From a virus: a stretch of DNA of 33,789 nucleotides. Both the position numbers and the translations under genes were made by a program. How positions within the stretch are numbered: position 1 is the first letter of the stretch; the number at the start of each line of letters is the position of its first letter. Shown here one piece after another: positions 3,999-33,789 of this stretch. The DNA is taken from the IMG/VR virus record IMGVR_UViG_3300020162_001932, positions 1 through 33,789 of that record; one strand, given 5' to 3'. The notes under the pieces were generated by a model. It searched no databases and was not told the origin of the DNA. It saw nothing but the letters and a program-made list of their open reading frames with translations.

Positions 3999-4002
3999 AA
4001 AA

Positions 4003-8288: not shown

Positions 8289-8289
8289 A

Positions 8290-9030
8290 TTAATAATGAA
8301 CTTGATAGTCTACAGGATTTGTTTTAATTTTATTGTTTGCAATATGATGTTTCAGAAGGAGTTCATTACACCAATATCCATCAATCTCATTTGATTGTCT
8401 AATGAGTTGTCCTATTTGATTATAGACACCACAGAATACATTCATTGTATTTGTTGAACCCATACCAAACCAATCACTAATCATACCATCAGGTTGGTAC
8501 AGATCTTGATATATTAATGTATCATCATTTACAGATACCTCATCCAATTTTAACACTACATGAGGTGAGTAGTCAATTCTGTTTCTAATTACTAAATTAT
8601 ATTCAGTACCAGTTTCTACCGAATACTGCTCTTTCAAAAGGTTAGCAATCATGATACTATAGAACATACTATTCGTAGTATCGCAAATGTAATCTTTTGC
8701 TACTTCTAGTCCCGAAGGAACTTCAAGTGCCCATGTATGTGAATGAGTGAATACCTTATCAGGAAATTGATATCGCCTAATCCACTTCTTAGGTTTCTCA
8801 ACCATTATTCTTTTTGGTTGGAAATAATGAACCAGTTTATCAATTGCTTGAGGATCTAACCTATGTGCTTCTCTTCCGGGTATAACTGAATTGGTGCTTA
8901 GATTTTCTGGATCAAACCAAGTATGAATGAATACATCAACATCGTTATGTTGAAGAATTGTTTGATTTAATTTATGAAAACCAACATCAACAACTCTAGG
9001 TTGTCCAGATAAACATAATGCTATTTTCAT
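8290..9030 (-). CDS. Hypothetical protein, possible glycosyltransferase (SGQPR type)
   Basis: A 246-aa protein beginning [20 protein letters not shown], followed by [13 protein letters not shown]. This start (LSGQPR, then DVFIHTW) occurs, as far as I recall, in uncharacterised proteins of polysaccharide loci and large phages. An acidic RNRIDYSP lies in the middle (about residues 148-155), and a Trp/Gly segment [15 protein letters not shown] follows. There are no membrane segments. It overlaps the upstream methyltransferase gene by 4 bp and abuts gmd, so it is part of the same transcript. A transferase role is inferred from context and the N-terminal fold-like pattern only. Confidence 0.5.
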
Positions 9031-9638
9031 AATTCTCGTTTATTTATGAAAACGACATCACTCAAATCTGATTTATTCCAAGGCTCAATAGTAGTATCAT
9101 ATTCATAAAAAAATTTAAAATTTATAGAATCAAAATAATCAATACAATCTTTTTTAATATATTCGCCATCATATCTTGGAATTTTATTTGGACACTCTAT
9201 TGCAATAAATTTTATTCTATTTAAATTTTGTTTTGATAAAGATTTTACAATAGACAAATCTTTTCCTTCTGCATCAATTTTAATAAAATGTATAATTTCT
9301 TCTGGCAAATCAATATCAATAATGCTATTGATATTTAAAATGTCAATGAACCCCATTTCTTCACCTTTGGAAGAAAAAAGTGAAGAGGATTGATCATCAT
9401 TATAAAATATTTTCCTTTGGGGAGTTCTAACATCATCTAGACAAACACGATAAAACTTATCATAATGAGATTCTACTCCATAATCAATTGGATCAATTCC
9501 TATAGAATAAACATTTTTTAGATCAAAGAATTTTTCCAATTCTACCAAAAAAGATGCTCTTGCAGATCCAACATCTATAACATTAATTTTATCATATTGT
9601 TTTAATTCTTTAAATACTGGGGAAATCGTAGATGTCAT
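9027..9638 (-). CDS. FkbM-family SAM-dependent methyltransferase
   Basis: A 203-aa class I methyltransferase. INVIDVGSARASFL (about residues 18-31) is the SAM-binding motif I region. SIGIDPIDYG is the acidic motif II, and IHFIKIDAEGKDLSIVKSL is the signature of FkbM-type O-methyltransferases (Methyltransf_21). FIAIECPNKIP follows. These enzymes often methylate sugars or glycans in capsule and O-antigen clusters, which fits the context. It overlaps both neighbours by 4 bp. Base use is somewhat more AT-rich than that of gmd, which may reflect separate acquisition. Substrate unknown. Confidence 0.8.
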   Translation of the reverse strand: MTSTISPVFKELKQYDKINVIDVGSARASFLVELEKFFDLKNVYSIGIDPIDYGVESHYDKFYRVCLDDVRTPQRKIFYNDDQSSSLFSSKGEEMGFIDILNINSIIDIDLPEEIIHFIKIDAEGKDLSIVKSLSKQNLNRIKFIAIECPNKIPRYDGEYIKKDCIDYFDSINFKFFYEYDTTIEPWNKSDLSDVVFINKREL

Positions 9639-10102
9639 TTAAATTTTTCCACATAGTCACTACATACAGCAAAAAATCTTTTGCTGTATGCTATTGTAGC
9701 ATTATCTTGAATATTTTGCAAGTCGAATACTTCTGGCATTACAATAACAGAATTATTTTCAAATAATTGCCCAGGATAAGTCCAAATATAACCTTTACTA
9801 GTCAAAGTATACTTATCGTTTTCATGCCAAAAAAAGTTAAAATCTATTGGACTATTAGAAAAAATATTCAAAGATTTAAAATCTTTACAATGAATCCAAA
9901 GTTTATCTTTTCTTTTAACTAACCAAGTCATAGGAACATAATATTGTGGTTCATCATGCCCCAAATAAAACTGATGATCTTCGCATCTTACATCAATCTC
10001 AACATCATATCCACCTGCAATTGCTGCTTCAATGTATTCTAGTTTATTCTCCTCTAGAGGATTAGGTCCTACAATATTACCTCTATGTGCTATCAGTTTC
10101 AT
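9635..10102 (-). CDS. Short GDPD / PI-PLC-like phosphodiesterase-fold protein
   Basis: A 155-aa protein starting MKLIAHRGNIVGPNPLEENK, then AGGYDVEIDVR and FYLGHDEPQY. The HRG, the ExN near residues 18-19, the E-x-D at about 36-38 and the later H-D are the metal and acid-base residues of glycerophosphodiester phosphodiesterases. Typical enzymes have about 240-300 residues, so the C-terminal part of the TIM barrel is missing or very short. In a glycan operon it might release or transfer a glycerol-phosphate-type group, but this is speculation. It overlaps the cupin gene upstream and the methyltransferase gene downstream by 4 bp each. Confidence 0.6.
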   Translation of the reverse strand: MKLIAHRGNIVGPNPLEENKLEYIEAAIAGGYDVEIDVRCEDHQFYLGHDEPQYYVPMTWLVKRKDKLWIHCKDFKSLNIFSNSPIDFNFFWHENDKYTLTSKGYIWTYPGQLFENNSVIVMPEVFDLQNIQDNATIAYSKRFFAVCSDYVEKFK

Positions 10103-10419
10103 GCGATATACTTATCCGAAGGAATAGATGGCCATCTCACTACTATAAGATCGACATCACTCAAGAACTCAACATCAGAAACTTCATTTGGTTCATAGAT
10201 CCACATATCACCCGTTTTCAAATACTTTTTAGATACTATTAGTTCACCCTTTACAATGTAATTAAGTTCATTAGTGATTGCATGGTAATGAGGAAAAGTT
10301 TGTTGACCTTCTGTATGAGAATGATGTGCAACTTCAAAGAAAGGATTCTTGAAGATTGATGGATTAAAATCACCCACAAACCATCCTGCTTTAAAGTCAA
10401 CAATATTTGCTTGAATCAT
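10099..10419 (-). CDS. Single-domain cupin
   Basis: A 106-aa cupin-type beta-barrel. The histidine-rich EVAHHSHTEGQQTFPHYHAI (about residues 29-48) supplies the cupin-1 metal ligands. NYIVKGELIVSKK and GDMWIYEPNEVSDVEF give the glycine and proline turns of the second cupin motif. Small cupins in sugar clusters act as isomerases, epimerases or binding proteins. It lies directly after the nucleotidyltransferase-isomerase fusion, overlapping it by 4 bp, so a role in the same nucleotide-sugar pathway is plausible. No specific reaction can be assigned. Confidence 0.7.
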   Translation of the reverse strand: MIQANIVDFKAGWFVGDFNPSIFKNPFFEVAHHSHTEGQQTFPHYHAITNELNYIVKGELIVSKKYLKTGDMWIYEPNEVSDVEFLSDVDLIVVRWPSIPSDKYIA

Positions 10420-11573
10420 TTTTCCAATTCCTGAATACGAACCTGATGACGACCACCATCAAAACTATGTGTTGAACAGATTTCTAGATACTTATCCAAT
10501 TTCTCAATGGTGTAGTCCTTCGCAGGAATTGCAAAGAAGTTTGCACAATTATGACGAATGGCCATTTCCATAGAGAAGTCATCATAGATAAGTGCTGAAC
10601 GAATACCTTTATATTTGTTTGCACAAATATTCACACCTTGACCAGTTCTACAGAAACCAAATCCATAATCACAATCACGTTCAGCAATTGCTTTAACTGC
10701 TTGTGCAATGTAATCACTATAATCACAATCTTTATTCAGAATAGTTCCAAAGTCAATATACTCAAGATTATGCTTTTCAAGAATATGTTTAAACTCTTCT
10801 TTTGCTTCAAATCCAGAATGATCTGAGCAAATAGCAATTGGTTTATCACCAACCTTACGAATAACATTTTCTTTATAAAAATGAAACTCATCAGGAGTTC
10901 CAAATACATGCATCTTATCTACGTCTGAGGTAACAATTTTTTTACCATCATCAATGAGAAGATTATACAAAGGTGCGATATAAAATTCATTCTTTGTCCG
11001 AATATCCTTATTAATCATTTCCTTTGCATACTTGCAGAAGTCAGAACCTTTTTTGAATCCATAGATTCCAACACAAGCATTAGAACTAATTGCTTTCTTC
11101 TCAGCAGTTCTCTTTACATACCCATCTTGATCAACATCAGCATAACTATAATTTGCAGAATTTGATTTAAATGTCAAAAGGAGTCCATCTGCATTCAAGT
11201 TATTCATAGTATGCGGATCAAATACTGGACGGAATTCAATATCTAGAGTATGAATTACAAGAGGTGCATCATTATCAATATATTCTTCTGCATACAGACA
11301 ACTGCTCACAGATCCATCAGTAAGTTTATCAAGAATCACAATCTTGATGTCATCACCAAACTTTTTCTTTAGGAGTTCATCAATATGAAAATTATAGACA
11401 GTTTCATCTCTAACCACAAAGATTAGATTGCAATCTTCATAGCTTAAACAGTCAAGTGAAATATCAATTAAATGTTTGTCTTTAATATTGATTAACTGTT
11501 TTGGTACTTTAAACCCTTCTTTAATGAATCTACTACCAAGTCCCGCCATCGGAACAAGAACATTTGGTTTCAT
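10416..11573 (-). CDS. Fusion: sugar nucleotidyltransferase + RpiB/LacA/B-type sugar-phosphate isomerase
   Basis: A 385-aa two-domain protein. Residues 1-238 are a GT-A-fold nucleotidyltransferase: NVLVPMAGLGSRF (4-16), VPKQLINI (23-30), IHTLDIEF (107-114) and a late YNLLIDDGKKI. Residues 244-385 are a complete RpiB-type aldose-ketose isomerase: ICSDHSGFEAKEE (248-260), YGFGFCRTGQGVNICANK (303-320), GIRSALIYDD (323-332), RHNCAN (340-345) and GGRHQVRI (373-380). The usual isomerase residues D251, H252, C308 and H341 are kept. The frame is continuous with no frameshift. With the kinase and phosphatase genes just upstream it gives all four enzyme types needed to make an NDP-sugar from a ketose phosphate. 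Confidence 0.88.
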   Translation of the reverse strand: MKPNVLVPMAGLGSRFIKEGFKVPKQLINIKDKHLIDISLDCLSYEDCNLIFVVRDETVYNFHIDELLKKKFGDDIKIVILDKLTDGSVSSCLYAEEYIDNDAPLVIHTLDIEFRPVFDPHTMNNLNADGLLLTFKSNSANYSYADVDQDGYVKRTAEKKAISSNACVGIYGFKKGSDFCKYAKEMINKDIRTKNEFYIAPLYNLLIDDGKKIVTSDVDKMHVFGTPDEFHFYKENVIRKVGDKPIAICSDHSGFEAKEEFKHILEKHNLEYIDFGTILNKDCDYSDYIAQAVKAIAERDCDYGFGFCRTGQGVNICANKYKGIRSALIYDDFSMEMAIRHNCANFFAIPAKDYTIEKLDKYLEICSTHSFDGGRHQVRIQELEK

Positions 11574-12241
11574 ATTGAATTCCTAATAATTTCAGTCGTT
11601 TTTAAATGAGCAAATTCAATCCAGTTATGGATGTCTCCCACATTCCTTAGTAATTTATATAAGAAGCAAGAAGCGAATGTATCACCAGCACCAAGAACGT
11701 TCACTCCCTTTAGTATAAATTCTTCTGGTAGTTTATAGAAGAACTCATTCTCTCCATTTGATACAACACTTCCTGACGAACTATGAAGTACTACATATCC
11801 TTTTGTTGCGTTCACATAATCAGATAAATCCCCATCAATATCTTCATCAGAAATGAAGAGATAATCAACATGCTTAAGTAAATCTTTATTCAATGATTTT
11901 CCAGGACATATATCTGCAGTGATAGTACCATCCAGAGCAGGAATAAAATCATGAATAGACATCTCATTTAGATAGATGAGATGATGAATTTTTGATTCAA
12001 AAATCTTTGCTTTGTGTTGCACAAGATTCAAGTTTGTCTTTGAATATCTTTGCGCTGCTGGTTTATCAATATAAACAAGTGCTTGACCTACATCAATCGG
12101 AGATAGTCCAATATTTAATGTTGAATCAATCTTAAGCAATGATTTCCAAACATTTGCCATTGATCCTAAACTTTTCTTTTCACTATCACCACCAAGAATC
12201 GTATCAATAGTCAAATGTCCATAAAGTGAAATGTCTTTCAT
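11570..12241 (-). CDS. PfkB-family (ribokinase-like) sugar kinase, short form
   Basis: A 223-aa carbohydrate kinase. The C-terminal NVLGAGDTFASCFLY contains the PfkB anion hole and catalytic Asp (D187). ISDEDI before it matches the family's middle segment, and the N-terminal YGHLTIDTI fits the first strand. At 223 aa it is about 80 residues shorter than usual; the N-terminal lid region is reduced. The ATG at 12241 overlaps the upstream stop as ATGA (a TTG one codon earlier is rejected). The PfkB fold is shared with the heptose-7-phosphate kinase half of HldE, which suits a role beside the isomerase and phosphatase. Substrate not shown by sequence. Confidence 0.8.
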   Translation of the reverse strand: MKDISLYGHLTIDTILGGDSEKKSLGSMANVWKSLLKIDSTLNIGLSPIDVGQALVYIDKPAAQRYSKTNLNLVQHKAKIFESKIHHLIYLNEMSIHDFIPALDGTITADICPGKSLNKDLLKHVDYLFISDEDIDGDLSDYVNATKGYVVLHSSSGSVVSNGENEFFYKLPEEFILKGVNVLGAGDTFASCFLYKLLRNVGDIHNWIEFAHLKTTEIIRNSI

Positions 12242-12777
12242 CAAAACTTTTCCTTCAGGTCAAGTTCATAAATTTTAGTCATTACTTCATCATAAGGAAC
12301 AATAGGAATTAGTCCATCAATTTCCAATTTATCAAATAATTGCATAATGACATTTTCACCTGCTTTACAGTAAAGTGTATTTGCATTCTGTTTTACAATT
12401 ATTGGAGAATCCAGAAGACAGTAAGGATGTCCTACTGATTTCATAATATTAACATCAAAAAGATCATCTCCAAGATAAAGAACTTCTTCTGCAAGACAAT
12501 TGTAATCGTCAAGAACTTCTGTAAGATAATTTACTTTATCTTTATGAAATCCTTCGCCACGATTCACTACAACAGGAAGATTTCTATTCTTAAGAATGAT
12601 CTCATTATAAGGATCACCAGTTATAAAAACAACTGGAATTCCAATAGCACGAAATCTTTTAATTGCAGTCCAATCCTTATCACAGAAAAGTTTAAGAACT
12701 ACTTTCCCATCATGATCATAATATTTGGTGCCATCAGTAAGAACACCATCCACATCAAGGATTATGAGTTTGATCAT
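12241..12777 (-). CDS. HAD-superfamily phosphatase, KdsC/YrbI-like
   Basis: A 178-aa HAD hydrolase of KdsC size. The nucleophile motif is LIILDVDGVLTDG (D8 and D10). KLFCDKDWTAIKRFRAIGIP then VFITGD is typical of KdsC-type tetrameric phosphatases. HKDKVNYL supplies the lysine, and YLGDDLFDVNIMKSVGHPYC the acidic motif III. KdsC-like enzymes dephosphorylate Kdo-8-phosphate, and relatives act on other sugar acids or heptose phosphates. It lies between the SAM methyltransferase and the kinase with 1-4 bp overlaps. In this context it probably supplies the phosphatase step of an activated-sugar pathway. Confidence 0.85.
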   Translation of the reverse strand: MIKLIILDVDGVLTDGTKYYDHDGKVVLKLFCDKDWTAIKRFRAIGIPVVFITGDPYNEIILKNRNLPVVVNRGEGFHKDKVNYLTEVLDDYNCLAEEVLYLGDDLFDVNIMKSVGHPYCLLDSPIIVKQNANTLYCKAGENVIMQLFDKLEIDGLIPIVPYDEVMTKIYELDLKEKF

Positions 12778-13427
12778 AATTTAAATGTTTTCTTAATTTC
12801 TTCAATTAATTCTGCATCATTTGAAGCAACACCGAGGCCAGCAGAATTTGTAAAATTAACTTTAGGAACTTCAAGTTGAGAAAAGAATAATCCAGCACCA
12901 TCAGGATTTGAAATAGTATCATGAAAGATAATTGCACCATTTTCTTTCAAGAACGGTGACCAAGTATCACAATCATTTTTACAGTTTGCATAATCATGAA
13001 GTCCATCAATATGTAAAAGATCTATTTCTTTATTCCATTCTTTTGCAACTTCATCAAAATAACCTTTAATAATTTCAAGATTATTTAATTTTAATTTATC
13101 CTTAACATCTAACACAAATTGATAATCTTCATCTGATCTCAATTCATGTTTAGATTGGTCAAAACAATCGATTCCATATACAACACCTTTACTATGAAGT
13201 GCTAATAAAAAAGATGAGTACCCCCAATCAACCCCAAGTTCAACCGTAACTTGAGGATTAATTTTTTGAATCAACCAAGATATAAATTCATTATGACTTT
13301 TAGGTGGAATATTCCATGCAGATGGAATTGCACCCAAAATTTCACTCACATTATCATCATCCAGAGAAAGAACATATTCTCTCCAATTATCTCTTTTATT
13401 TTCACACCAAGAAAAATTTTCAACCAT
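12774..13427 (-). CDS. Class I SAM-dependent methyltransferase (Methyltransf_24-like)
   Basis: A 217-aa methyltransferase. VTVELGVDWGYSSFLLALHS is the SAM-binding motif I, VVYGIDCF motif II, and LLHIDGLHDYANCKNDCDTW with GAIIFHDT the family-24 motif. I chose the ATG at 13427 (MVENFSWC) because a strong Shine-Dalgarno AAGGAG lies 7 bases upstream and it overlaps the upstream stop by only 8 bp. A longer frame to 13508 would overlap gme by 89 bp. Likely substrate is a sugar or sugar nucleotide. Base use is AT-rich, as in the FkbM gene. Confidence 0.8.
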   Translation of the reverse strand: MVENFSWCENKRDNWREYVLSLDDDNVSEILGAIPSAWNIPPKSHNEFISWLIQKINPQVTVELGVDWGYSSFLLALHSKGVVYGIDCFDQSKHELRSDEDYQFVLDVKDKLKLNNLEIIKGYFDEVAKEWNKEIDLLHIDGLHDYANCKNDCDTWSPFLKENGAIIFHDTISNPDGAGLFFSQLEVPKVNFTNSAGLGVASNDAELIEEIKKTFKL

Positions 13428-14466
13428 TAATTTGCTCCTTAATCCAATCATAAGTCTTACGAATACCTTCTTCAAGTGTCTGCGAATAATCCCACCCAAG
13501 TTTTTCACGGATCAAATCGTTGTTTGAGTTACGACCACGAACACCGAGAGGTGCATCTAATTTATATACTTTCTGAACTACTTTACCAGCAACCTTTGCA
13601 GCAGTCTCTACAAGTTGATTGATAGTCACCATTTCTTCTGAACCAATATTTACTGGTCCGATGAAATCAGATTCCATCATTCTACGAGTTGCTTCAATAC
13701 ACTCATCAATATAAAGGAATGAACGAGTCTGAAGACCATCACCCCATACTTCTATCGCACCACCTGTTTCTGGGAGGTATGCAACCTTTCTACAGATTGC
13801 TGCGGGGGATTTTTCTCTTCCACCTTCCCAGGTTCCTTCAGGTCCAAAGATATTATGATAGCGAGCAACCCGAATATCAATCCCGTAGTTACGATGATAT
13901 GCGAAAAACAATCGTTCAGAAAAGAGTTTTTCCCATCCATATTCTGAATCTGGTGCTGCTGGGTATGCCGATTCTTCACTACAGTTTGGGTTATTTGGAT
14001 CTAATTGGTTGTGCTCTGGATACATGCAAGCAGAACTAGAATAAAAAATCTTAGTGTTGTTTACACCACTCATTCTATTACGTTCTTTTTGCATCTCAAG
14101 CACATTCAGATTAATAGTTGCGGAATTGTGCATAATGTCTGCATCATTCTCACCACTAAAAACAAATTCTGCTCCACCCATATCGGCAGCAAACTGATAG
14201 ATCTCATCAAACGATGTAATATGACTATCAGGTACTAATTGATAAAAATTTCCCAGATAACCCTTAAACTGAAGGCAAGAAGCAACAAATCTAACATCAC
14301 GCAGATCTCCCCGAATGAATTCATCTGCCTCAGAGATAGAAAACTCTGGATACTTAAGATCTACACCACGAACCCAGTAACCTTCTGATAGTAGTCTTTT
14401 AACCATGTGACTTCCAATGAACCCACCAGCACCCAGAACCAGTGCTGTTTTCTTATATTCACTCAT
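13420..14466 (-). CDS. gme: GDP-mannose 3,5-epimerase-like SDR
   Basis: A 348-aa extended SDR closely resembling plant GDP-mannose 3'',5''-epimerase, which makes GDP-L-galactose (and GDP-L-gulose) from GDP-D-mannose. Landmarks: VLGAGGFIGSHM (10-21), QFAADMGGAEFV (91-102), YSSSACMYPE with C147, the catalytic EYGWEK with Y176 and K180, YHNIFGPEGTWEGGREKSPA with K219, and WGDGLQTRSFLYIDEC, VNIGSEEMVTINQLVE and GVRGRNSNNDLI. These correspond to the catalytic Cys, Tyr, Lys and Lys of the plant enzyme. It is the first gene of the glycan island, just after a terminator and weak promoter. Confidence 0.88.
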   Translation of the reverse strand: MSEYKKTALVLGAGGFIGSHMVKRLLSEGYWVRGVDLKYPEFSISEADEFIRGDLRDVRFVASCLQFKGYLGNFYQLVPDSHITSFDEIYQFAADMGGAEFVFSGENDADIMHNSATINLNVLEMQKERNRMSGVNNTKIFYSSSACMYPEHNQLDPNNPNCSEESAYPAAPDSEYGWEKLFSERLFFAYHRNYGIDIRVARYHNIFGPEGTWEGGREKSPAAICRKVAYLPETGGAIEVWGDGLQTRSFLYIDECIEATRRMMESDFIGPVNIGSEEMVTINQLVETAAKVAGKVVQKVYKLDAPLGVRGRNSNNDLIREKLGWDYSQTLEEGIRKTYDWIKEQING

Positions 14467-18282: not shown

Positions 18283-18828
18283 CTAACCAAGAATACTTTG
18301 TCTCCAATCTTCACTCATATTCGCCATAATTGATTCTGCTGCTTCTGGTGTTTCTGCATATCCTTCATCAAGAAGGTGTGAGAGGATGATGTCGTAGAGG
18401 TCTACTTGTTCTTTACTTAAAATGGGTTCTATAGAAAATCGTGCGGTTCTGCCCTTACTAGCAATTGAACCACTAGAAGTTGCATTTTGCCTATCTTTAA
18501 TCTTATCAACCGCATTTACAACTTTTTTAGCCTTTGCATTTATTTTACGTCTATCTTTGACAGGAGTAAAAGTCTTGGTAGTACGGACATCACTCATCTT
18601 ATTAATTCTTCCAGCTCTATTGAGATTGAGCTCACCTTGTCTTCCTTGTGGTTGACTTCCTGACAATCTTTCCGACCTAGTAACACCAGAAGAAAGTTTG
18701 TTTATTTCTCTTTGTATTTTACGTGCAACTTTTTTTTCTGGAAATTGCTTGAATCCCTCATCAAGTTCTTGTTCTTGATAAACTTCCAAATATGCTTCTT
18801 GAAGACTACGAAGTTCTTGTGCGTCCAT
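18283..18828 (-). CDS. Putative virion/prohead-associated modular protein (small paralogue)
   Basis: A 181-aa protein with two modules shared with 32650-33660. One is the start MDAQELRSLQEAYLEVY; the other is near the C-terminus, with KEQVDLYDIILSHLLDEGYA followed by MANMSEDWRQSILG. The middle is basic and Ser/Lys/Arg-rich with no fold visible. In cyanomyoviruses such low-complexity proteins are usually reported as virion or core components, but I cannot assign a position. A late promoter TATAAATA is 20 bp upstream of the start, and a terminator follows, so this is a one-gene late unit. Confidence 0.65.
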   Translation of the reverse strand: MDAQELRSLQEAYLEVYQEQELDEGFKQFPEKKVARKIQREINKLSSGVTRSERLSGSQPQGRQGELNLNRAGRINKMSDVRTTKTFTPVKDRRKINAKAKKVVNAVDKIKDRQNATSSGSIASKGRTARFSIEPILSKEQVDLYDIILSHLLDEGYAETPEAAESIMANMSEDWRQSILG

Positions 18829-20526: not shown

Positions 20527-20696
20527 TCCTGTGAGTCAAGAGAAACAATTTCTAGTTCATCATTTTCTGGTTCAATCCATTCATAAAATTCTGCAAGAAC
20601 AGCACGAGCATCCTCTCTAGAAATACTTTTATCTGCTACTCTTTCCAGAGACCAGTCCCTTACGTGAGCAACAATATCTTCAGTTGTTGTATTCAT
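20523..20696 (-). CDS. Small acidic hypothetical protein
   Basis: A 57-aa protein starting MNTTTEDIVAHVRDWSLERV, with an acidic end FYEWIEPENDELEIVSLDSQD (last 21 residues: F-Y-E-W-I-E-P then acidic). No known motif. I chose the ATG at 20696, a 17-bp overlap with the GIY-YIG gene. The longer frame to 20912 would overlap most of that gene and has unnatural composition in the added part. Confidence 0.65.
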   Translation of the reverse strand: MNTTTEDIVAHVRDWSLERVADKSISREDARAVLAEFYEWIEPENDELEIVSLDSQD

Positions 20697-21117
20697 AGTA
20701 ATCTTTTCTGAAATATCGGGACAATACGTTGGAATTGTAGAACAAGGGATCTCCGTTGTCAAGTGATTCTGTGAGGACGTTGTTAATGAAGAGTTGTCGG
20801 GTCTCTTCATAGTTTGTTTTGCCCTTTGTTTTATGTAATGATAAGATAGTTCGACTAAAATTTTCTCTGCCCAATTTATCAATGTCTTCTTTAAGTTCCG
20901 GACAAGACCCATAATAGTTTTTCCAATCTGATTCTGATTTTACTTTTCTTTTTTTACCTCTTGGAGTTCTGAACTGCCAGAAGTATTTTCTACCTACGTA
21001 TTTTCTGTGATTGATTTTATTAAAAATAAGATAAACAAATCCAAAATAATCCTCAATATTATCAGACTCGAAAGGATTCTCATCATAATACCAAGGATTA
21101 GTATAACTACAACTCAT
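20680..21117 (-). CDS. GIY-YIG family endonuclease, free-standing
   Basis: A 145-aa protein. GFVYLI (26-31) and KYVGRK (39-44) are the two strands of the GIY-YIG module with the conserved Arg (R43). GKKRKVKSESDWKNYYGS follows, then LGRENFSRTIL, and the likely catalytic Glu in TNYEETRQLF (E104 or E105). FYNSN near the C-terminus is also typical. There is no separate DNA-binding domain, as in T4 Seg-type enzymes. It lies 61 bp after nrdB, a common place for phage homing genes near ribonucleotide-reductase genes. A late-promoter-like CATAAATA is 20 bp upstream. Confidence 0.78.
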   Translation of the reverse strand: MSCSYTNPWYYDENPFESDNIEDYFGFVYLIFNKINHRKYVGRKYFWQFRTPRGKKRKVKSESDWKNYYGSCPELKEDIDKLGRENFSRTILSLHKTKGKTNYEETRQLFINNVLTESLDNGDPLFYNSNVLSRYFRKDYYEYNN

Positions 21118-26473: not shown

Positions 26474-26846
26474 TGTAGATTTTATAGAGTTCTGTTAAAC
26501 AAGTAAGATCAACTTGAATATCATGAATACTTGATTGTGGATATTCTGGAAGTCTATTAAGAAAAATAATAAATGATTTAACAGAAGACCACAAATCTTG
26601 TTCAATTTTAAAAAACAACATCGGTGTAGTTGCTTCTCCAAAAATGTTATAAAGAATTATAAAATGATTTAAGATCAGGTGAGTTTTTAGTTCACCTGAT
26701 TTCTTATATCTCTTCAGTAATCTTTTTATATACTTAAAATGATTTAAGTCCTTTTCAAAATCTTCTTTAGTGACTGCTTGAGGGTTTTCATAATACCTAA
26801 TAGCAAACAAGAGAAAATTATCCTCATTCAGTTCATTAAAAATCAT
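26454..26846 (-). CDS. Conserved hypothetical T4-like phage protein
   Basis: A 130-aa all-helical-looking protein: MIFNELNEDNFLLFAIRYYE, a basic DFEKDLNHFKYIKRLLKRYK, then LILNHFIILYNIFGEATTPM and a Trp-containing amphipathic stretch. I recall similar small proteins encoded in many T4-like phages without a known role; that is memory, not a search. It starts 6 bp after the structural protein gene's stop and overlaps the next gene by 20 bp. Confidence 0.7.
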   Translation of the reverse strand: MIFNELNEDNFLLFAIRYYENPQAVTKEDFEKDLNHFKYIKRLLKRYKKSGELKTHLILNHFIILYNIFGEATTPMLFFKIEQDLWSSVKSFIIFLNRLPEYPQSSIHDIQVDLTCLTELYKIYNGKEET

Positions 26847-26852
26847 ATTTTA

Positions 26853-27605
26853 TCAGAATGGAGGATAAGGTAGATTATTTCCAGTTGTAATGCCAGACAT
26901 TGCAACAAGAACTTCAGATTTAACTCTGATATTACCTTCGGAGTCTCTATAAGTTGTAACACCAACCCAACCACTATGAGTTAGTTTGAATTTTGTAGAT
27001 ACTGCTGCTTCTGTTTCGGCATCCTCAACACCAATCACAGAAGTCTCATGACCACCAGTGACTCTTGAGAATGTAATAACTGCTGCAGTCGCAATTCCAG
27101 CAGAAATTGTAGATGCAAGTGAAACACTAGTAGCACCAACAGTTGAAACAATTCTAGTATTTGCACCACTTACAAAGGTATCTCCAGAAATAACTCCTGT
27201 TAAAGAATTCACAAAAACAATATTAGTCCCAATTCCAGCATTTGTAGTTGCTGCAGAAACTAGTACAGTAATAGTTTCAGTATCTCCACCACCCGATTGA
27301 TTCAAATGACTATCTAATACCGCAAACTTTGGAGATTCACTAATCTGGAACTGTACTCCAGAAATTGCTGCTCCACTCAGTCCAGCAGTTGATGCGATTG
27401 ATAGTTGTGTTGTGCTTGCAATTCCAACGATTACAGCATCTCCAATATTAACGCCAAATGCTGCACCAAACCTAATCACGTCACCAGTTTTAGCAGCCCC
27501 AACGTTTCCAAAAGTAGTGCCTGTACCTGTTACGACAAGAGTGTCATAGTTTAAAGATACTGTTCCACCAGAACCAACATTATCATTGTTTCCCCAGAGT
27601 GCCAT
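26853..27605 (-). CDS. Putative virion structural protein (Gly/Ser/Thr/Val-rich beta)
   Basis: A 250-aa protein with the composition of phage tail, fibre or head-decoration proteins. It starts MALWGNNDNVGSGGTVSLNY and continues in repeated short beta-strand units rich in T, V, G and A (VVTGTGTTFGNVGAAKTGDV; SAATTNAGIGTNIVFVNS). There are no cysteines. A late promoter TATAAATA 37 bp upstream and an AAAGG ribosome site support late high expression. Its exact place in the virion cannot be told. It is the first gene of a late operon with the three following small genes. Confidence 0.75.
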   Translation of the reverse strand: MALWGNNDNVGSGGTVSLNYDTLVVTGTGTTFGNVGAAKTGDVIRFGAAFGVNIGDAVIVGIASTTQLSIASTAGLSGAAISGVQFQISESPKFAVLDSHLNQSGGGDTETITVLVSAATTNAGIGTNIVFVNSLTGVISGDTFVSGANTRIVSTVGATSVSLASTISAGIATAAVITFSRVTGGHETSVIGVEDAETEAAVSTKFKLTHSGWVGVTTYRDSEGNIRVKSEVLVAMSGITTGNNLPYPPF

Positions 27606-27641
27606 TCTTTTTACCTTTTACTAAAATTTTTTTGCTATGAG

Positions 27642-27649
27642 TATTTATA
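27642..27649 (-). promoter_or_regulatory. T4-type late promoter
   Basis: TATAAATA followed by C on the minus strand. It shares its first T with the T-run of the preceding terminator, so transcription stop and late start are fused. Confidence 0.8.
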
Positions 27650-27673
27650 AAAAAAGAGAAGTTCTCACTTCTC
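27649..27673 (-). terminator. Intrinsic terminator overlapping a stop codon
   Basis: GAGAAGT-GAGA-ACTTCTC, 7 perfect pairs, then seven Ts. The stem includes the TGA of the 56-aa gene. Confidence 0.85.
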
Positions 27674-27835
27674 CTTAGTTTTATCTTTTTTGATTAATGA
27701 TACTAAAATATTTTTAATTAATCTATGAACACTATTTGACTTTACACTTGGAATTTCATCCAGTGCTTCAGATAATCCCAACAACAAAGCCAGAGTCAGA
27801 GCAATTCCCCAGTTAAGAAGAAAACACTCCAACAT
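27665..27835 (-). CDS. Small membrane protein
   Basis: A 56-aa protein starting MLECFLLNWGIALTLALLLG, giving one hydrophobic segment at about residues 4-20, then an acidic turn and a basic C-terminal helix (SLIKKDKTKEK). It could be a small holin-like or anchor protein, but one helix is not diagnostic. The ATG shares one base with the upstream stop (TGATG), strong support that it is translated. The stop lies in the terminator stem. Confidence 0.65.
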   Translation of the reverse strand: MLECFLLNWGIALTLALLLGLSEALDEIPSVKSNSVHRLIKNILVSLIKKDKTKEK

Positions 27836-28017
27836 CACTCTGGGCAGTTATTGAGGAGTTTTGTTCTTATTAAGTTCACTGCAACATCATCAATATCATT
27901 GTCAGTGCTTTTCGCATACTTTTCAAGAAGATGTACTACAAATCTTTTAACTTCGCAACTCTTCCAGAACATTTCAACAAGACTTTCACCAAGTTTTACT
28001 AGTACATTGAAGTTCAT
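27835..28017 (-). CDS. Small hypothetical protein
   Basis: A 60-aa protein, MNFNVLVKLGESLVEMFWKS, then a basic helical part (VKRFVVHLLEKYAKSTD) and an acidic end. No domain recognised. It has a clear GGAG ribosome site 7 bases before the ATG and is coupled to the membrane protein gene downstream by TGATG. A TCTAAATA late-promoter-like site lies about 35 bp upstream. Confidence 0.65.
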   Translation of the reverse strand: MNFNVLVKLGESLVEMFWKSCEVKRFVVHLLEKYAKSTDNDIDDVAVNLIRTKLLNNCPE

Positions 28018-28055
28018 CGTTTTTCTCCGTGTGGAAGTGGTTGTAACTATTTAGA

Positions 28056-28313
28056 TTAATCAAACCTTGATCCGATTTTAGTTTTGGGTGTTTTTTTCAT
28101 ATTCTCTTTTTCTTTTTCAGTGCGAGTATAGTCATAACCACCTGGTTCTTTTTTTGCCTTTGGTGGATCACCTGGCATTCTCACCCGACTACCATCTTTT
28201 TTTACCATCATATAATCTTCCAAAGACATTTTTACTGATGTGCTAGTTTCGTCAACCATATCACCTTCTGGTTGGTAAGATGCCTCAAGAGGAAGTTTAT
28301 TAGTTCTTTGCAT
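28056..28313 (-). CDS. Hypothetical hydrophilic protein
   Basis: An 85-aa strongly hydrophilic protein ([20 protein letters not shown], then [20 protein letters not shown]), probably disordered, with a basic C-terminus. I chose the ATG at 28313; the longer frame begins with TTG at 28334. It overlaps the end of the 528-aa gene by 14 bp. It is probably co-expressed with that late gene. No family recognised. Confidence 0.6.
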
Positions 28314-29886
28314 TTGAAGTTTTTGACGATCCAATATCTGTTTTTTTTTGTTGAAGCATTTTTAGATTAGCAAGTTTTTGCTTATCAAATATCTCTTTTT
28401 TGTTATCAATAGGAGGAGTTGCAGTTACTATTGGTGGTTCATTATTCATTTGTTCTACAACTTTCTTTGCTATTTTTGTAGCAGTAGCATACATCACTTC
28501 TTCACCACGACCAGGATATCTTCTTTCAAAGTCTGCTTTATTACTCTTCATTGACTTTACAAGTCTTTCCTTTTCCTTTGTTTCAGCATCAGTTAAAGTC
28601 TTTTCATAAAGTTCAACTTCTTCTTTTCTAATATCAGAAAGCAGAGAATCTAACTTTGATGTTCTTTTTCTTTTTGGAGTTGCAGGTTTTGCTGCTGCAG
28701 GTGTTGCAGGTTTTGGTGTTGTCGTAGTCTTTGCCTTTGGTGCTGCTACCTTTACCTTTGGTTTTGGCGCTGTTGCAGGTGCTTCTGATGCTGCAGGTTT
28801 TGGTGTTGCTTTTGATGTAGTATCAGTTTTCTTTTCTCCATCTTCCATTCTGCGAGCAACATTTCTTGCTCCTCTTGATACTGCTCTTGCACCAGCACCA
28901 ACTGCCCTTTTTAGTCCACTCTTAAGTGCTGATCCAATTCTTCCAAGCAATCCAGGTCTTTTAGATCCAGTTTCCTTTGTGTCAGAACTTGTTTGTGAGG
29001 AAGAAGAACTGCCCTCACCAGAAGAACCTCCTCTACCTCTTTCATATCCTTTGGAAAACTCTCTACCAGCTGCTCTCGCTCCTCTTACAGCAGCACCAGC
29101 AACATATCCTACTCCACGAGCAAGTCCCTTTCCAACTTTCTTTACAGCAGACTTTACTTTCTCAAGTCTATCACTCTTAATATCAGTATCGTGCCCCAGA
29201 GTGACTTTTGCTTCTGTTAAAAGAGCAGCAGAAACATCTATTGACTCAACTAAAACATTTTCAATTTCTTTAACATCATATCCTTCTTGAATACACTCAT
29301 TAAAGAACTCTTCAACAACTTCTTCAATCAGTTTATCTGAAAGAAGAAATACTTCAGATTCTGAAAGATCATCAAGAATACAATCAGCATCTTCAATCTC
29401 TACCATCTCAAGAAGAGTTCCACCAAGTTCCTCTACTGCTTCACCAAGAGTTGGATTAATTGTAATTTTATTTTTTATTGCTTTTTCAGTAACTTTTAAA
29501 TCTTCACTTTTATCGTTTTTTTTTAAGTCTCCAATCACTTCAGAAAGATCTTGTCTCCAATCAGAGAAACCTTCTTTTACATTTTTCTTTTTGATTGCCT
29601 TACCAACTGCTTTGCGTCTGTTGTGAAGATACTTATCCGACTTATCAGTATCACCATCATTATCAATATCAGCATCTTCTTGACCTACTGGGTCTAGTGC
29701 TTCATCAAACTTCTTTCTAGCTGCAGCAACCATATCTTTATGTGCTTTGGTTTTTTTCATATCTTCAATTGCTTTTTCATTATTTTCACGACGTTTCTTC
29801 ATATCAGGTTCAAGATGTGAAGACTCACCAACCACAACTTGCTCCAGATATACTGATGAGATATCGTTAAGAATATTCATTGACAT
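28300..29886 (-). CDS. Large low-complexity virion/core-type protein with EF-hand-like motif
   Basis: A 528-aa protein. Residues about 60-110 have [20 protein letters not shown], a D-x-D-N-D-G-D calcium-binding loop as in dockerins/EF-hands, followed by a basic [12 protein letters not shown]. An acidic helical region follows (about 140-225), then Ala/Gly/Arg-rich ([20 protein letters not shown]) and Lys/Ala/Pro/Thr-rich linkers, and finally a conserved-looking [20 protein letters not shown] (about 460-480). Such composition fits a prohead core or internal virion protein. A late promoter is 31 bp upstream. A second Met is at residue 3. Confidence 0.65.
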
Positions 29887-29893
29887 TGTAATA

Positions 29894-31195
29894 CTACTTG
29901 CTTTTTACCTTATACTTATTTATAAACTCCTTAATATTAGAAAACTTATATCCACTATAAGGTTTTGCTCCTGGTTGAAGATTTGTTTTATCACCCTTCT
30001 CAAAACCAGGAGTCATACCTGCAACATACTTAAAATATCCAGAGGTTCCTACAAGAGTATTTGGTTTTCCAGGGAGTCTTTCTTTTCCACTCATTACCTT
30101 TTCAGTATATTCCATCAGATCCCTGATCCAAGACTTAAACATATATCCTTCTTCAGTTACATAGATTAAATGATTAGTTCCTCTACGCATTACTTCACCA
30201 ACCAACCCAGTATTTAAGTTCTCAACAATATCTCCAATTCTAAAAATCTTTCCTGTTAAATAATTTTCACGAAGAGTTTGTTGATCGTATTTTGGAGCAA
30301 TCTGCCAGAGTTCTACAACTTCTTTTTTCTTTTTCTTTGCACCCATTCCCTGACGAACTGCATTAAAGAGTGCTTGAGTATCAGCATCATCAAGTGTCTT
30401 TGGAGTTCCTTTGCGGAAGGAATCAAAATCATCATCAATAACTGCTTTTCTCATCTTGGATGCAGACATTCCTTCTACACCATCAGCATCTGCATCTCTG
30501 ACTCCTGCAGAAACTACACGGATTAAATCAAAGTTATAAAGGTCTCCATTATATTTCTGTGCAAGGTTCTCAAACTCTGCTTGACGATCTGATCCAACAA
30601 CAATATTAACACTTGAGTATCCTTCTTCATTTGCATTTATAAGAACATCAAAAATAGATCTCATATTATCATCGTTTATAATGATTTCCTCAAAGTCAGG
30701 AAACATCTTCTTCATAAACGAAATCTTCATATCAGGATCCAACGGGTTCTTCTTTGGATCTTGAGTTCTTGATGGATAAATCTTAACATCTCCACCAGCA
30801 GATATTCTCTTTGCTGACTTGAGAAGTTTATCGTGTCCTACTGTTGGTGGATTAAACCTACCAAATACAATTGTAAGTGGTGGAGTTTCTTGTGTTTGAT
30901 CTTCAGGTGCGGGTTTTTTTGGTGCTTTAGATTCTGGTGCAGGTGCTTGTGCTGCTTTTGCTTTTGGTTTTGTTTCAGGAGCAGCAGTTTTTTGAGTATC
31001 TGTTTTGGGTTCTTCTTGTCCTTTAGAAGTTCTTTTTTCAGTAAACTTTAGTTTTCCCTTTTCTGTTCTTGCAACTACTTTACCGGCACGATCAATCCAC
31101 CCTCCGTGACCATCACCTTTTAGTCCAAGTTTCTTCGCTTGCATTGCTGCTTGCGATTCTGTTGCTTCAGTTAGAAAATTGAGAAAACTTTTCAT
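29894..31195 (-). CDS. Putative virion protein with nucleotidyltransferase (HxGH-like) domain
   Basis: A 433-aa three-part protein. Residues 1-55 form an N-terminal module ([20 protein letters not shown], then [19 protein letters not shown]) that I recall from other marine-phage virion proteins. A Lys/Ala/Pro linker follows (about 55-105). Then comes a Rossmann-like nucleotidyltransferase domain: [20 protein letters not shown] (about 106-125) with TVGH in place of Hx[19 protein letters not shown], and [10 protein letters not shown], which fits the ISSTxxR motif. The C-terminal part is unassigned. The catalytic motifs look usable, so NMN-, CTP- or pantetheine-type transfer is possible. Confidence 0.7.
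29917..29924 (-). promoter_or_regulatory. T4-type late promoter inside the end of a gene
   Basis: TATAAATA within the last codons of the nucleotidyltransferase-domain gene, 31 bp before the 528-aa gene's ATG. Confidence 0.65.
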
Positions 31196-31215
31196 ATTGT
31201 GTTTTGGTATACTTT

Positions 31216-31223
31216 TATTTATT
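31216..31223 (-). promoter_or_regulatory. Late-promoter-like site
   Basis: AATAAATA (7/8), overlapping the stop codon of the 446-aa gene, 21 bp before the ATG at 31195. Confidence 0.45.
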
Positions 31224-32559
31224 CTAATTTTAAATAAGGAGCGGAGAATGATGACTGCGAACTTGCATAAAGATATAAATCTTTTGTAATTTCATCAGCT
31301 ACTTTTTTATTCATATCTCTCATTTTAATTAAAAGTTTTAAAACTAACCATTTAGAGTAACGATATTTTTCAGATTTTCCTTTAATAGTATTTACAACTG
31401 CGTCTTCTTCATTTGCTTTAATTATACCATAATCCATCATTAATTTAGCAATATCCTTAGCATGTTTATCACTATTTTGTCTAGCTAAAGAGGCAGATTC
31501 TGTTGAGGTTGGTAATTCACCTACACCATGACTTTTTAAAATATAGTTTAAGGGTCCCAATGAAATCTTTCCTTGATTAGCAGATGCTCCTTTAATCTCA
31601 CCTTGCCATCCGGATAATCCATCCCCAACACCAAAACTTCTAAATTGTATTTTTTCGGTGGGAGAAGTTCCCCAAATAATATAACCATCCATAGACTCGA
31701 AAGTTGAAGAGGTTCCTCTAAATGATGCCTTTGATATTTTTGCATCATTAGGAAAGTTTTTTTCTGATATTGATGCCCTGTTTGATTCTATCTTTTTTAA
31801 AGATACTCCAATAAGTTTTTCTTCTTGAATTAATTGATACATCCTTTCATTTAATCCCTTTAAAGTAGTTTCTCCATTCAAGATATTGGGGTTAAAACCC
31901 TTCCTTATAATGTATATATCTGCCGGACTCCATTTGTTTATATCACCAAATGCCTTTTCAATTCTATTTATTTTTTTAAAAACATTCTCGATCTGATCTA
32001 CTTTATTCGATCCCCTATGATATTCAAACACCTTATCATCAAATCTTTTACGTAACTCATTTGCTCCTAAAATTGAAGAATGAATCCAATCATCAGGTAA
32101 TTCATTTTTCATTCTATTAAAATCTTCATCAGTAATTGCAAATTTAATTGCTTTATCAAAATTTGTCTGTGTAAGATCACTTTCCGATATATTTTTACCG
32201 AGGACATTAGACATAGAAGCATAAAGTGCTTGAGCAGATTCCCCCAATTTTGTTACTTCGGATCCTGCTCCAGATCCACCACCCTTAAGTGGTTTATATA
32301 CAACTTTATAAGTAATATTAACAGACCCTTCTTTAATATTTACAATGGTAATAGGAAAACTAGATTCATTATCTTTTACATTTGCTTGAAAAGAAACACT
32401 TTCTCTTTTTAAGGCGGCATTTACATCGACAGCAAGCTTTGTTCTATCTGCAGATTTTACAGTGTAAACAACAGTTCTACTAGTTGCTTTTTTTATAGAA
32501 ACATCAAAACCTTGTAAAGCTCTATTTAAAGCAAGTAGAGCATCCCCTGCTTTTGCCAT
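31219..32559 (-). CDS. Hypothetical protein, probably virion-associated
   Basis: A 446-aa protein of unknown family. The N-terminal third is beta-rich with repeated hydrophobic/polar alternation (TSRTVVYTVKSADRTKLAVD; ITIVNIKEGSVNITYKVVYK) up to a GGGSGAGS linker near residue 95. The rest is mainly helical and charged, with a Gly/Trp-rich patch (FGVGDGLSGWQGEIKG). No catalytic motif is evident. Position among late-promoter genes suggests a structural protein. A weak late-promoter-like AATAAATA and a terminator lie upstream. Confidence 0.65.
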   Translation of the reverse strand: MAKAGDALLALNRALQGFDVSIKKATSRTVVYTVKSADRTKLAVDVNAALKRESVSFQANVKDNESSFPITIVNIKEGSVNITYKVVYKPLKGGGSGAGSEVTKLGESAQALYASMSNVLGKNISESDLTQTNFDKAIKFAITDEDFNRMKNELPDDWIHSSILGANELRKRFDDKVFEYHRGSNKVDQIENVFKKINRIEKAFGDINKWSPADIYIIRKGFNPNILNGETTLKGLNERMYQLIQEEKLIGVSLKKIESNRASISEKNFPNDAKISKASFRGTSSTFESMDGYIIWGTSPTEKIQFRSFGVGDGLSGWQGEIKGASANQGKISLGPLNYILKSHGVGELPTSTESASLARQNSDKHAKDIAKLMMDYGIIKANEEDAVVNTIKGKSEKYRYSKWLVLKLLIKMRDMNKKVADEITKDLYLYASSQSSFSAPYLKLE

Positions 32560-32581
32560 TTTATATCAATACTCTTTTAAG

Positions 32582-32589
32582 TATTTATT
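32582..32589 (-). promoter_or_regulatory. Late-promoter-like site
   Basis: AATAAATA followed by C (7/8), 22 bp before the ATG at 32559 and just after a terminator. Confidence 0.5.
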
Positions 32590-32600
32590 AAATAACTATT

Positions 32601-32632
32601 AAAAACCCACTCAACAAAAATTCAAGTGGGTT
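32601..32632 (-). terminator. Intrinsic terminator
   Basis: AACCCACT/AGTGGGTT, 8-bp stem, 13-base loop, followed by TTT on the minus strand; it ends the 32650-33660 unit. The stem is nearly the same as in the hairpin at 20466-20490. Confidence 0.8.
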
Positions 32633-32649
32633 AGAGTAATCTATTAAGA

Positions 32650-33660
32650 TTACTTATTATTCATCTGCCTCTCTTTATAAGCATCAAGTTCTGCTTTTCT
32701 TTGCTCTGGGGTTTTCTTTGCATCTGCATCTCTAACAGATTTTAATGCTGCTTGAAATGCAGGATCATTATTTGGTTTAGATTGCTTATAAACATTCATA
32801 GGACCAGAAGCAGGACGACCTCTTGGGTCCATTTTTACCTCAACAATACTCTGTCTCCACTCTTCACTCATATTTGCCATAATGACTAATGCACTCTCAT
32901 TAGTATCAGCATATCCTTCGGCAATCAAGTACTCAAGGATTGTGTCGAAGATATCAACTTCCTCTTTAGTAACCAATCCAACAACATTCCTGTTCTTTTT
33001 AGTTAATTTATCAAAAAATTTAACATCTCTTTGCATCTTATCAGCATTATCTTTTCCTGCTGCTGGAGAAAGACGATTCTTTATACCAGACTTTCTTTCC
33101 GTAGATGCTGCTTTTCTCATTTCAGTATCGTGACGTGAAGCACCTTTTACTGCTTCATCAAGACAAACCTCATACATTTCATCCCAAGTGTATGAAGAAA
33201 GGTCATAACCCTCTTCAATTAGTGCATTTACGATAAACTCAAACTCTTCTCTGTTAAGTGCTGCTGCTCTTTTTGCTGCTTTACTACCCCTTCCTCTTGC
33301 ATCATCAGCACCATACTTACTATAACCTGCTTTCAGATACTTATCGTGTGCTGCTTTGGATTGGTTAGCAACTTGCTTCTGGAATGGTTTATCTCCATAA
33401 TCTTTTTCATCTTTTTCTGCTCTTGCACGAGATCTATCAAGGATTTGTCTCTTTGCTGAAGTGTCTGATTTTTCTGGTCCTACATTATACTTCTTACGAA
33501 GTTGATCACCTCTACTTTCTGGTTTAGGTGCTTCTGCTTCTTTTTTACCACCACCAAGAAGTCTCTTTACTGCTGAACGAAGACCTTCTTCAATATTTTC
33601 TTGAGGAGCATAAACATCCATATATGCTTCGTGGAGGTTACGCAGTTCTTTAGAATCCAT
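32650..33660 (-). CDS. Putative virion/prohead-associated modular protein (large paralogue)
   Basis: A 336-aa protein. It starts MDSKELRNLHEAYMDVYAPQ, like the gene at 18283-18828. A long basic, Ala/Lys/Arg-rich middle is followed by two helical modules. One is NREEFEFIVNALIEEGYDLS, then WDEMYEVCLDEAVKGASRHD. The other is TKEEVDIFDTILEYLIAEGY, then MANMSEEWRQSIVE, shared with the small paralogue. The tail is Pro/Lys-rich. There is no enzyme motif. A terminator-fused late promoter lies 20 bp upstream and a terminator follows. A prohead core, internal or tail component is the best guess. Confidence 0.65.
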   Translation of the reverse strand: MDSKELRNLHEAYMDVYAPQENIEEGLRSAVKRLLGGGKKEAEAPKPESRGDQLRKKYNVGPEKSDTSAKRQILDRSRARAEKDEKDYGDKPFQKQVANQSKAAHDKYLKAGYSKYGADDARGRGSKAAKRAAALNREEFEFIVNALIEEGYDLSSYTWDEMYEVCLDEAVKGASRHDTEMRKAASTERKSGIKNRLSPAAGKDNADKMQRDVKFFDKLTKKNRNVVGLVTKEEVDIFDTILEYLIAEGYADTNESALVIMANMSEEWRQSIVEVKMDPRGRPASGPMNVYKQSKPNNDPAFQAALKSVRDADAKKTPEQRKAELDAYKERQMNNK

Positions 33661-33680
33661 TTTTTACAATACTTTCTAGT

Positions 33681-33688
33681 TATTTATA
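33681..33688 (-). promoter_or_regulatory. T4-type late promoter
   Basis: TATAAATA followed by ACTAGAAAGTAT on the minus strand. It begins within the T-run of a terminator. The leader matches that of 18283-18828 almost base for base. Confidence 0.8.
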
Positions 33689-33714
33689 AAAAAAAATCCC
33701 CCCGAAGGAGGATT
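33688..33714 (-). terminator. Intrinsic terminator
   Basis: AATCCTCC-TTCG-GGGGGATT, 8 pairs (one G-T) with a TTCG tetraloop, then nine Ts on the minus strand. It lies 3 bp after the stop of the truncated gene at the right edge. Confidence 0.88.
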
Positions 33715-33717
33715 GGA

Positions 33718-33789
33718 TTACACAATCACTTTTTCGAGTTCTGTATCAAGTTGTTCCATAACTTCACGAAGTCTTACAATTCGTTCTGG
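33718..33789 (-). CDS. C-terminal fragment of an unknown protein, 5' end outside window
   Basis: An open frame from the right edge to a TAA at 33718, encoding 23 visible residues ending REVMEQLDTELEKVIV. The helical, charged composition and the terminator right after the stop support a real gene end. Function cannot be read from this piece. Confidence 0.6.
   Translation of the reverse strand, partial: PERIVRLREVMEQLDTELEKVIV

Follow-up and report, generated by a model that had tools for sequence, protein, structure and literature searches.

A nucleotidyltransferase of T4-like cyanophages begins with a T4-type capsid-targeting sequence and is probably carried in the phage head

The nucleotidyltransferase encoded in the 33,789-nt stretch of viral DNA analysed here (the window) starts with ten residues that closely follow the capsid-targeting code of phage T4, and a T4-like tag at the start of the protein implies that the enzyme is probably carried inside the particle and delivered with the DNA. 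As rough estimates, it is highly likely that the protein is head cargo by way of its tag, and reasonably likely, judging by analogy, that it is ejected into the host; the fuller claim, that the tag directs it to the head and that its nucleotidyltransferase is active, whatever the substrate, we regard as likely. On this reading the window gene would encode head cargo of the T4 type, with another enzyme as the payload.

In the mechanism that we propose, a T4-like cyanophage would make the nucleotidyltransferase late, as an internal protein of its head. The N-terminal ten residues would serve as a T4-type capsid-targeting sequence (CTS) directing the enzyme to the prohead core, and a gp21-type prohead protease would cleave after Glu10. 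The mature protein, composed of a post-CTS module, a linker, the nucleotidyltransferase and a beta domain, would be retained in the DNA-filled head and would enter the host with the phage DNA at the start of infection. There, the ejected domain would transfer adenylyl groups, with NMN or NaMN as the likeliest acceptor, so that the NAD level might be upheld before phage gene expression. We infer targeting, cleavage and ejection from T4, by analogy, and the substrate and the benefit are guesses. Action on NAD or nucleotides after injection, as the first-pass annotation had suggested, would be in keeping with active-site motifs and a fold that are both intact.

The gene and its capsid-targeting sequence

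The gene (29894-31195, minus strand) encodes 433 residues from an ATG start, laid out as a short N-terminus, a K/P/A-rich linker, a nucleotidyltransferase domain and a C-terminal beta domain. A PHROGs profile match places the protein in phrog_395, 'cytidyltransferase' (E=2.4e-104), and homologues occur in 533 phage records, mostly of cyanomyoviruses, where they are named 'cytitidyltransferase' or NMNAT. A marine-phage N-terminal module and an Ala/Pro/Lys linker had been described before, and both hold: residues 2-49 match phrog_3561 (E=1.7e-14), and residues 55-105 (30881-31033, minus strand), with low pLDDT and a composition of 75% A/P/K/E/Q, form the flexible linker. The post-CTS module proper, A..QAKKLGL.GDGHGGW.DR.GKVVART..GKLKF, spans residues 11-54 (31034-31165, minus strand), is modelled with a pLDDT of about 90 at residues 21-50, and is common to phrog_3561 and the S-CREM2 virion protein gp12. 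At the other end of the protein, the small beta domain (residues 305-363; 30107-30283, minus strand) matches phrog_4808 at residues 304-362 and has its counterpart in Syn1 as a separate 92-aa gene. Stand-alone versions of this domain (phrog_4808, S-PM2p144; cf. Syn1_162) are annotated 'ribonucleotide reductase alpha subunit' or 'NrdB', which looks like a misannotation.

The tag itself occupies residues 1-10 (31166-31195, minus strand), with a predicted prohead-protease cut after Glu10, where LTE is followed by A. In T4, it is the first ten residues of IPIII that head incorporation requires, positions 4 and 7 serving targeting and positions 8 and 10 processing, and gp21 recognizes the motif L/I-x-E and cleaves after the E (PMC9026906); LTE is itself a gp21 site in T4 Alt (PMC5694885). 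The window tag has F4, F7, L8 and E10 at these critical positions, and T4 IPIII, for which removal of the first ten residues is annotated, starts MKTYQEFIAE followed by A. All 79 close orthologues match M..[FY]..[FY][LI].E, and 136 of 150 orthologues, distant ones included, fit the strict tag (146 with slight relaxation). Across 58 diverse rows of the alignment, F7 is invariant, F4 occurs in 56 of 58 and E10 in 56 of 57, with variation at positions 3, 5, 6 and 9. The S-CREM2 orthologue, of only 286 aa, lacks the post-CTS module and the long linker yet retains MKNFSSFLTE followed by A. A gp21-type prohead protease is annotated in both S-SCSM1 (gene 40) and S-CREM2 (gp143), from a region that the window, a 34-kb fragment, does not include.

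The open literature searched, subscription papers being outside its scope, does not mention a capsid-targeting sequence in cyanophages; the tag on a cyanophage nucleotidyltransferase is new as far as we found, with priority unproven. Not all phage enzymes of this kind can be explained by the tag: it is missing from S-CBWM1 gp39, a virion NMNAT from a different group of phages. Shorter, tag-less homologues are present in Syn1, K64-1 and Callisto, and packaging is therefore not essential to the enzyme family.

Late expression and presence in virions

The gene had been called late on first reading, which fits its upstream sequence: a promoter, AATAAATA, of the NATAAATA type reported as the late promoter of cyanophages S-PM2 and Syn9 (PMC2984593), lies at 31216-31223 on the minus strand and starts 28 nt upstream of the ATG. 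The motif recurs at 20-60 nt in 78 of 120 distinct orthologue upstream regions (shuffles: mean 5.1, maximum 14), and 50 of these 78 have it at exactly 28 nt. Late expression of the nucleotidyltransferase is supported in this way by promoter sequence.

The five cluster genes of the window, all on the minus strand, each have NATAAATA starting 28-44 nt before the start codon, and their order (32650-33660, 31219-32559, the nucleotidyltransferase, 28300-29886, 26853-27605) is the same in S-SCSM1. The gene at 32650-33660 (late promoter at 33681-33688), the phrog_1462 gene at 31219-32559 (NATAAATA starting 30 nt upstream) and the gene for a 528-aa protein at 28300-29886 (late promoter at 29917-29924) are positional equivalents of S-SCSM1 genes 89, 90 and 92, each of which specifies a virion protein. 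The product of 26853-27605 (late promoter at 27642-27649) starts MALWGNNDNV and resembles that of S-SCSM1 gene 95, a virion protein that starts MALWGNSDNV. The cluster is bordered by gp43, uvsX, gp41 and mazG on one side and by gp61, nrdA and nrdB on the other. NATAAATA is absent upstream of nrdA, nrdB and the gp61-type primase gene in the window, and S-SCSM1 shows a similar late-promoter split between cluster and replication genes. Rfam RNAs were not found in window positions 26500-33789, and a sigma-70 promoter scan was uninformative, returning fewer sites than in shuffles.

Several other features of the window deserve mention. A long operon-like run of 18 ORFs at 591-14466 holds glycosyltransferase, nucleotide-sugar epimerase and related genes, and just one of the 18 is preceded by NATAAATA at a distance of 60 nt or less (18 nt). 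The 528-aa neighbour of the nucleotidyltransferase contains an EF-hand-like acidic repeat and a Pro/Ala/Lys linker. The proteins encoded at 32650-33660 and 18283-18828 both start MD(S/A)xELRxLxEAY, with a protease-like motif (L-x-E, then A), and S-SCSM1 virion protein 89 starts MDSKTFNSLSEAY; to judge from these sequences, a start of the MD(S/A)xELRxLxEAY type is possibly a second type of targeting propeptide.

Carriage of the nucleotidyltransferase family in virions is already published and is not new here. Orthologues from S-SCSM1 (2022) and S-CREM2 (2023) were detected by mass spectrometry in CsCl-purified virions (PMC9602691, PMC10665884); both bear the tag, and the one from S-SCSM1 is 61% identical to the window protein. 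In the mazG-gp61 interval of S-SCSM1, the virion proteins annotated from mass spectrometry are 89, 90, 91 (this enzyme), 92, 93, 95 and 97. The combination of orthologues in virions with a T4-type tag argues for packaged cargo and not a structural component, so that the earlier suggestion of an enzyme either packaged in the particle or built into it is sustained in its first form and not in its second.

Could the protein instead be an ordinary auxiliary metabolic enzyme of the infected cell, with its detection in virions due to carry-over of an abundant protein? The authors of the proteomic studies themselves caution that virion preparations may contain strongly expressed proteins as contaminants, and the detection of S-CREM2 ORF154 was based on three unique peptides. 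It is also true that the gene sits among replication and nucleotide genes and that tag-less homologues are known. Carry-over would nevertheless leave the conserved N-terminal capsid-targeting sequence with its protease motif to be explained, as well as the presence of late promoters on the gene and its cluster neighbours with none on gp41, mazG, gp61, nrdA and nrdB. Considering, in addition, that the cluster neighbours are virion-detected and that the enzyme was found in independent phages, we judge this explanation unlikely.

The reading as packaged cargo can be pursued in the S-CREM2 genome, in which 52 of 219 CDS products are virion-detected. The strict tag is found at three of the 219 CDS starts, all three of them virion-detected (p=0.013, with few tagged proteins), and the relaxed tag gives five of six virion-detected (p=0.003, again with few tagged proteins). 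The strictly tagged trio consists of the cytidylyltransferase, a SAM hydrolase/lyase and an APH-like kinase. A large virion-detected protein annotated as Cas9-like, gp12, has the tag-like LRFASFMAE, followed by A, slightly inside its N-terminus; it has the GDGHG module too and falls in phrog_3561 alongside the window module. The non-structural virion proteins listed by the S-CREM2 authors are the cytidylyltransferase, the SAM hydrolase, the kinase and gp12, plus two endolysins. Two hypothetical virion-detected proteins of S-CREM2 (OR473000) also have a T4-type or T4-like tag at the N-terminus, and the tagged virion proteins of this phage map to 3837-5081, 7704-10313, 10310-10546 and 10579-12846 of L177, 8302-9015 of L179 and 9609-10469 of L090. 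In S-SCSM1, the strict tag occurs at a single CDS start, that of the nucleotidyltransferase gene; gene 30 has a relaxed tag, yet is not marked as virion-detected.

The nucleotidyltransferase domain and its possible acceptors

Residues 106-285, approximately (30341-30880, minus strand), are predicted to form a domain of the CoaD/NadD/NadM fold, as judged by AlphaFold2 and structure matches. Two motifs of this superfamily had been noticed at the outset, and both were confirmed: the [H/T]xGH nucleotide-binding motif at residues 112-121 (30833-30862, minus strand), and MSASKMRKA at residues 243-251 (30443-30469, minus strand), the equivalent of ISxTxxR and thus an (I/M)SxxxxR motif. Between them lie the family signature KKNPL (residues 148-152; 30740-30754, minus strand), which aligns with DPF of archaeal NMNAT, and GSDR (residues 201-204; 30584-30595, minus strand), of which G, D and R are invariant across the family. 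G120, H121, S244 and R249 are invariant in homologues, and the residues of GR..P..GH, KKNPL, G.DR and S....R are all invariant in 11 diverse homologues. Given this invariance, the phrog_395 match and the number of records with homologues, the motifs are not a product of chance. The PF01467 score of the window protein is weak (16.8 bits against a 21-bit cut-off), and the S-PM2 homologue, at 30.3 bits, exceeds that cut-off.

The structure prediction suggested by the first-pass annotation, made by AlphaFold2 with 61 window-type sequences, gave a nucleotidyltransferase fold with pLDDT >90 over most of residues 111-280; confidence was moderate in the C-terminal beta domain and low in linker residues 55-98 and the last 30 residues. 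Taken together, the motifs and the model make it probable that the nucleotidyltransferase is an active enzyme. One might argue, alternatively, that the N-terminal motif is a tether and the protein a part of the shell or tail, with the enzyme fold serving as a non-catalytic scaffold, and the accessory domains that flank the enzyme (post-CTS module and C-terminal beta domain) and the cluster neighbours, virion proteins without a known role, would suit such an arrangement. A scaffold of this kind is most improbable, considering that the catalytic-motif residues are invariant across phages, in tag-less forms too, and that free enzymes (SAM lyase, kinase, GNAT-like) are predicted for other ORFs with the tag.

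On what acceptor, then, would the packaged enzyme act? When the domain is compared with the PDB, CoaD, NadD, NadM and archaeal NMNAT are roughly tied (Z 13-14.3, with about 3 A rmsd over about 150 residues); PPAT/CoaD tops the structural list and the best Foldseek match is NadM. The nucleotide-binding half thus agrees with expectation; the substrate is not readable from the fold. The model is compatible with adenylylation of NMN/NaMN and of phosphopantetheine alike, with NAD as the best guess; that the substrate is NMN or NaMN is a tentative assignment, a little short of an even chance. A sizeable possibility, although one that we would bet against, is head cargo without a role in NAD metabolism that uses some other acceptor, be it phosphopantetheine, a protein, a sugar- or polyol-phosphate, or a nucleic acid or tRNA end. 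The first place of PPAT/CoaD in the tied structural list would suit this alternative, as would the family-specific KKNPL and GxDR signatures and scores below the NCBIfam equivalog cut-offs for NMNAT: the window protein scores 14.8 of 341 bits for NadR (and 13.3 of 103.3 bits for CoaD), and the P-SSM2 homologue 27.3 of 112 bits for NadD. Speaking for NMN or NaMN are the Foldseek match to NadM, the weak NadR/NadD profile matches of the P-SSM2 homologue (E about 3e-6) and the alignment of the NP(L/F) signature with archaeal NMNAT.

NMN/NaMN adenylyltransferases have an aromatic residue, usually Trp, that stacks on the nicotinamide. Residues 106-285 contain no Trp, a further point in favour of another acceptor, and an invariant Phe182 is present in the domain. 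The idea that Phe182 replaces the Trp was dropped, because the profile comparison with archaeal NMNAT covers the first 57 residues only (probability 15%) and the multiple alignment leaves the nicotinamide-stacking position unfixed. A sequence search of solved structures gave nothing significant, with NadM and archaeal NMNAT at E about 0.2-0.3.

The gene context bears on the acceptor as well. In some phages, the nucleotidyltransferase has a DUF6267 protein as its neighbour or fusion partner, which also speaks for an acceptor other than NMN or NaMN. Such proteins, with KWDGAP (ligase-like KxDG, judged by eye), lie next to it in S-PM2 (p141-p142), Syn1 (Syn1_160) and S-RIM2 (S-RIM2_173), and the one in S-PM2 is partly fused to it. 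A search for a NAPRTase/NadV gene in 20 records (T4 plus 19 that are cyanophage or cyanophage-like) came up empty, and the host would therefore have to supply any NMN or NaMN. A window ORF at 20680-21117, which matches phrog_447 'NAD synthetase', was tried as a salvage partner; it is not counted as an NAD gene because it also matches homing endonucleases and sits where S-SCSM1 carries a GIY-YIG endonuclease, and the name 'NAD synthetase' is probably wrong.

Other tagged proteins and relation to known systems

A genome-wide search at the DNA level used the pattern M-K-x-F-x-x-F-[LIMF]-x-E, with the reversed pattern as control. The tag was found at 23 places in 20 records and at 21 places in 20 more, all of them ORF starts, and the reversed pattern at none in the same 40 records. 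The tag pattern had no match in Syn1, K64-1, Callisto and pEa_SNUABM_19, the records whose form of the enzyme is short and tag-less. When Tyr was allowed at position 4, the T4 positive control returned ipII, ipIII and the uncharacterised gp61.1; T4 IPI was missed by the strict pattern. The 54-aa gp61.1 (NC_000866, 18966-19130) starts MKTFKEFIKE, a good capsid-targeting sequence, and adjoins gene 61, which is the site of the virion-protein cluster in cyanophages.

Besides the nucleotidyltransferase, the tagged ORFs comprise a 104-106-aa family, SAM lyases, a GNAT-like protein and a family that starts MKTFQEFIAEAKRLKF. The tagged SAM lyases belong to PF23780 (62-70 bits against a cut-off of 28); those encoded on L197, L199 and L189, which have the tag at their start, could, on their sequences, be head-delivered anti-restriction enzymes. 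The MKTFQEFIAEAKRLKF..YHGT family, found on IMG/VR cyanophage-like contigs (L238, 1001-1540; L240, L200 and L216), has a tag nearly identical to that of T4 IPIII. Like the T4 IPs, it has an N-terminus with matches to PHROG 'internal virion/head protein' families, and its model, of modest confidence (pLDDT 60), has ADP-ribosyltransferase-fold structures throughout its match list (Z up to 7.9); if the model is correct, the family may be an analogue of T4 Alt. On two contigs (those of L106 and L070) a tagged ADP-ribosyltransferase-fold protein is encoded together with the tagged nucleotidyltransferase, so that a maker and a user of NAD, both packaged, may cooperate.

We lean towards the view that, in marine T4-like cyanophages, the capsid-targeting code of T4 serves to load pre-made enzymes in modular fashion. 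The proposed set consists of the nucleotidyltransferase, SAM lyase, APH-like kinase, Cas9-like protein, ADP-ribosyltransferase-fold protein and GNAT-like protein, in which the tag stands at the start or near it. If this is true, the host would receive effectors that act on NAD and SAM along with the phage DNA. 'Metabolic' enzymes in the virion proteomes of cyanomyoviruses have lacked an explanation; the tag would address that, and also the reported absence of alt from cyanomyoviruses (PMC2984593). The tag is legible in the genome; it would tell which gene products reach the host at time zero, and is readable from metagenomes. Should the enzyme feed NAD, its action would precede all phage transcription, a stage at which the fate of the infection may hinge on NAD-depleting defences or on host metabolism. 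In the laboratory, the tag could load chosen reporter proteins into cyanophage heads.

How does the window protein compare with known systems? T4 Alt would be a functional counterpart, an enzyme in the head that is cut by the T4 prohead protease at ITE and LTE sites and ejected into the host, but it is an ADP-ribosyltransferase and so of a different enzyme class. T4 IPII and IPIII share with the window tag an aromatic residue at positions 4 and 7, L/I at position 8 and E at position 10, and are carried inside the head, although the window protein has no homology to them beyond the tag. The T4 IPs are restriction inhibitors (PMC12373910), whereas the window cargo is a nucleotidyltransferase with extra modules. 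The closest relatives are the phrog_395 / T4-GC 190 proteins of cyanomyoviruses (S-SCSM1 gene 91, S-SM2, Bellamy 170), full-length orthologues of up to 63-65% identity whose gene neighbourhood is shared with the window gene; they are annotated as metabolic genes or NMNAT, and the tag goes unmentioned in their records and open papers. Finally, NadM, NadR, NadD and CoaD have the fold and the [H/T]xGH and S..R motifs in common with the window domain, which differs from them in falling below all equivalog cut-offs and in its family-specific KKNPL and GxDR, and the Nudix or kinase partner domain of the NadM/NadR/NadD comparison is not seen in the window protein.
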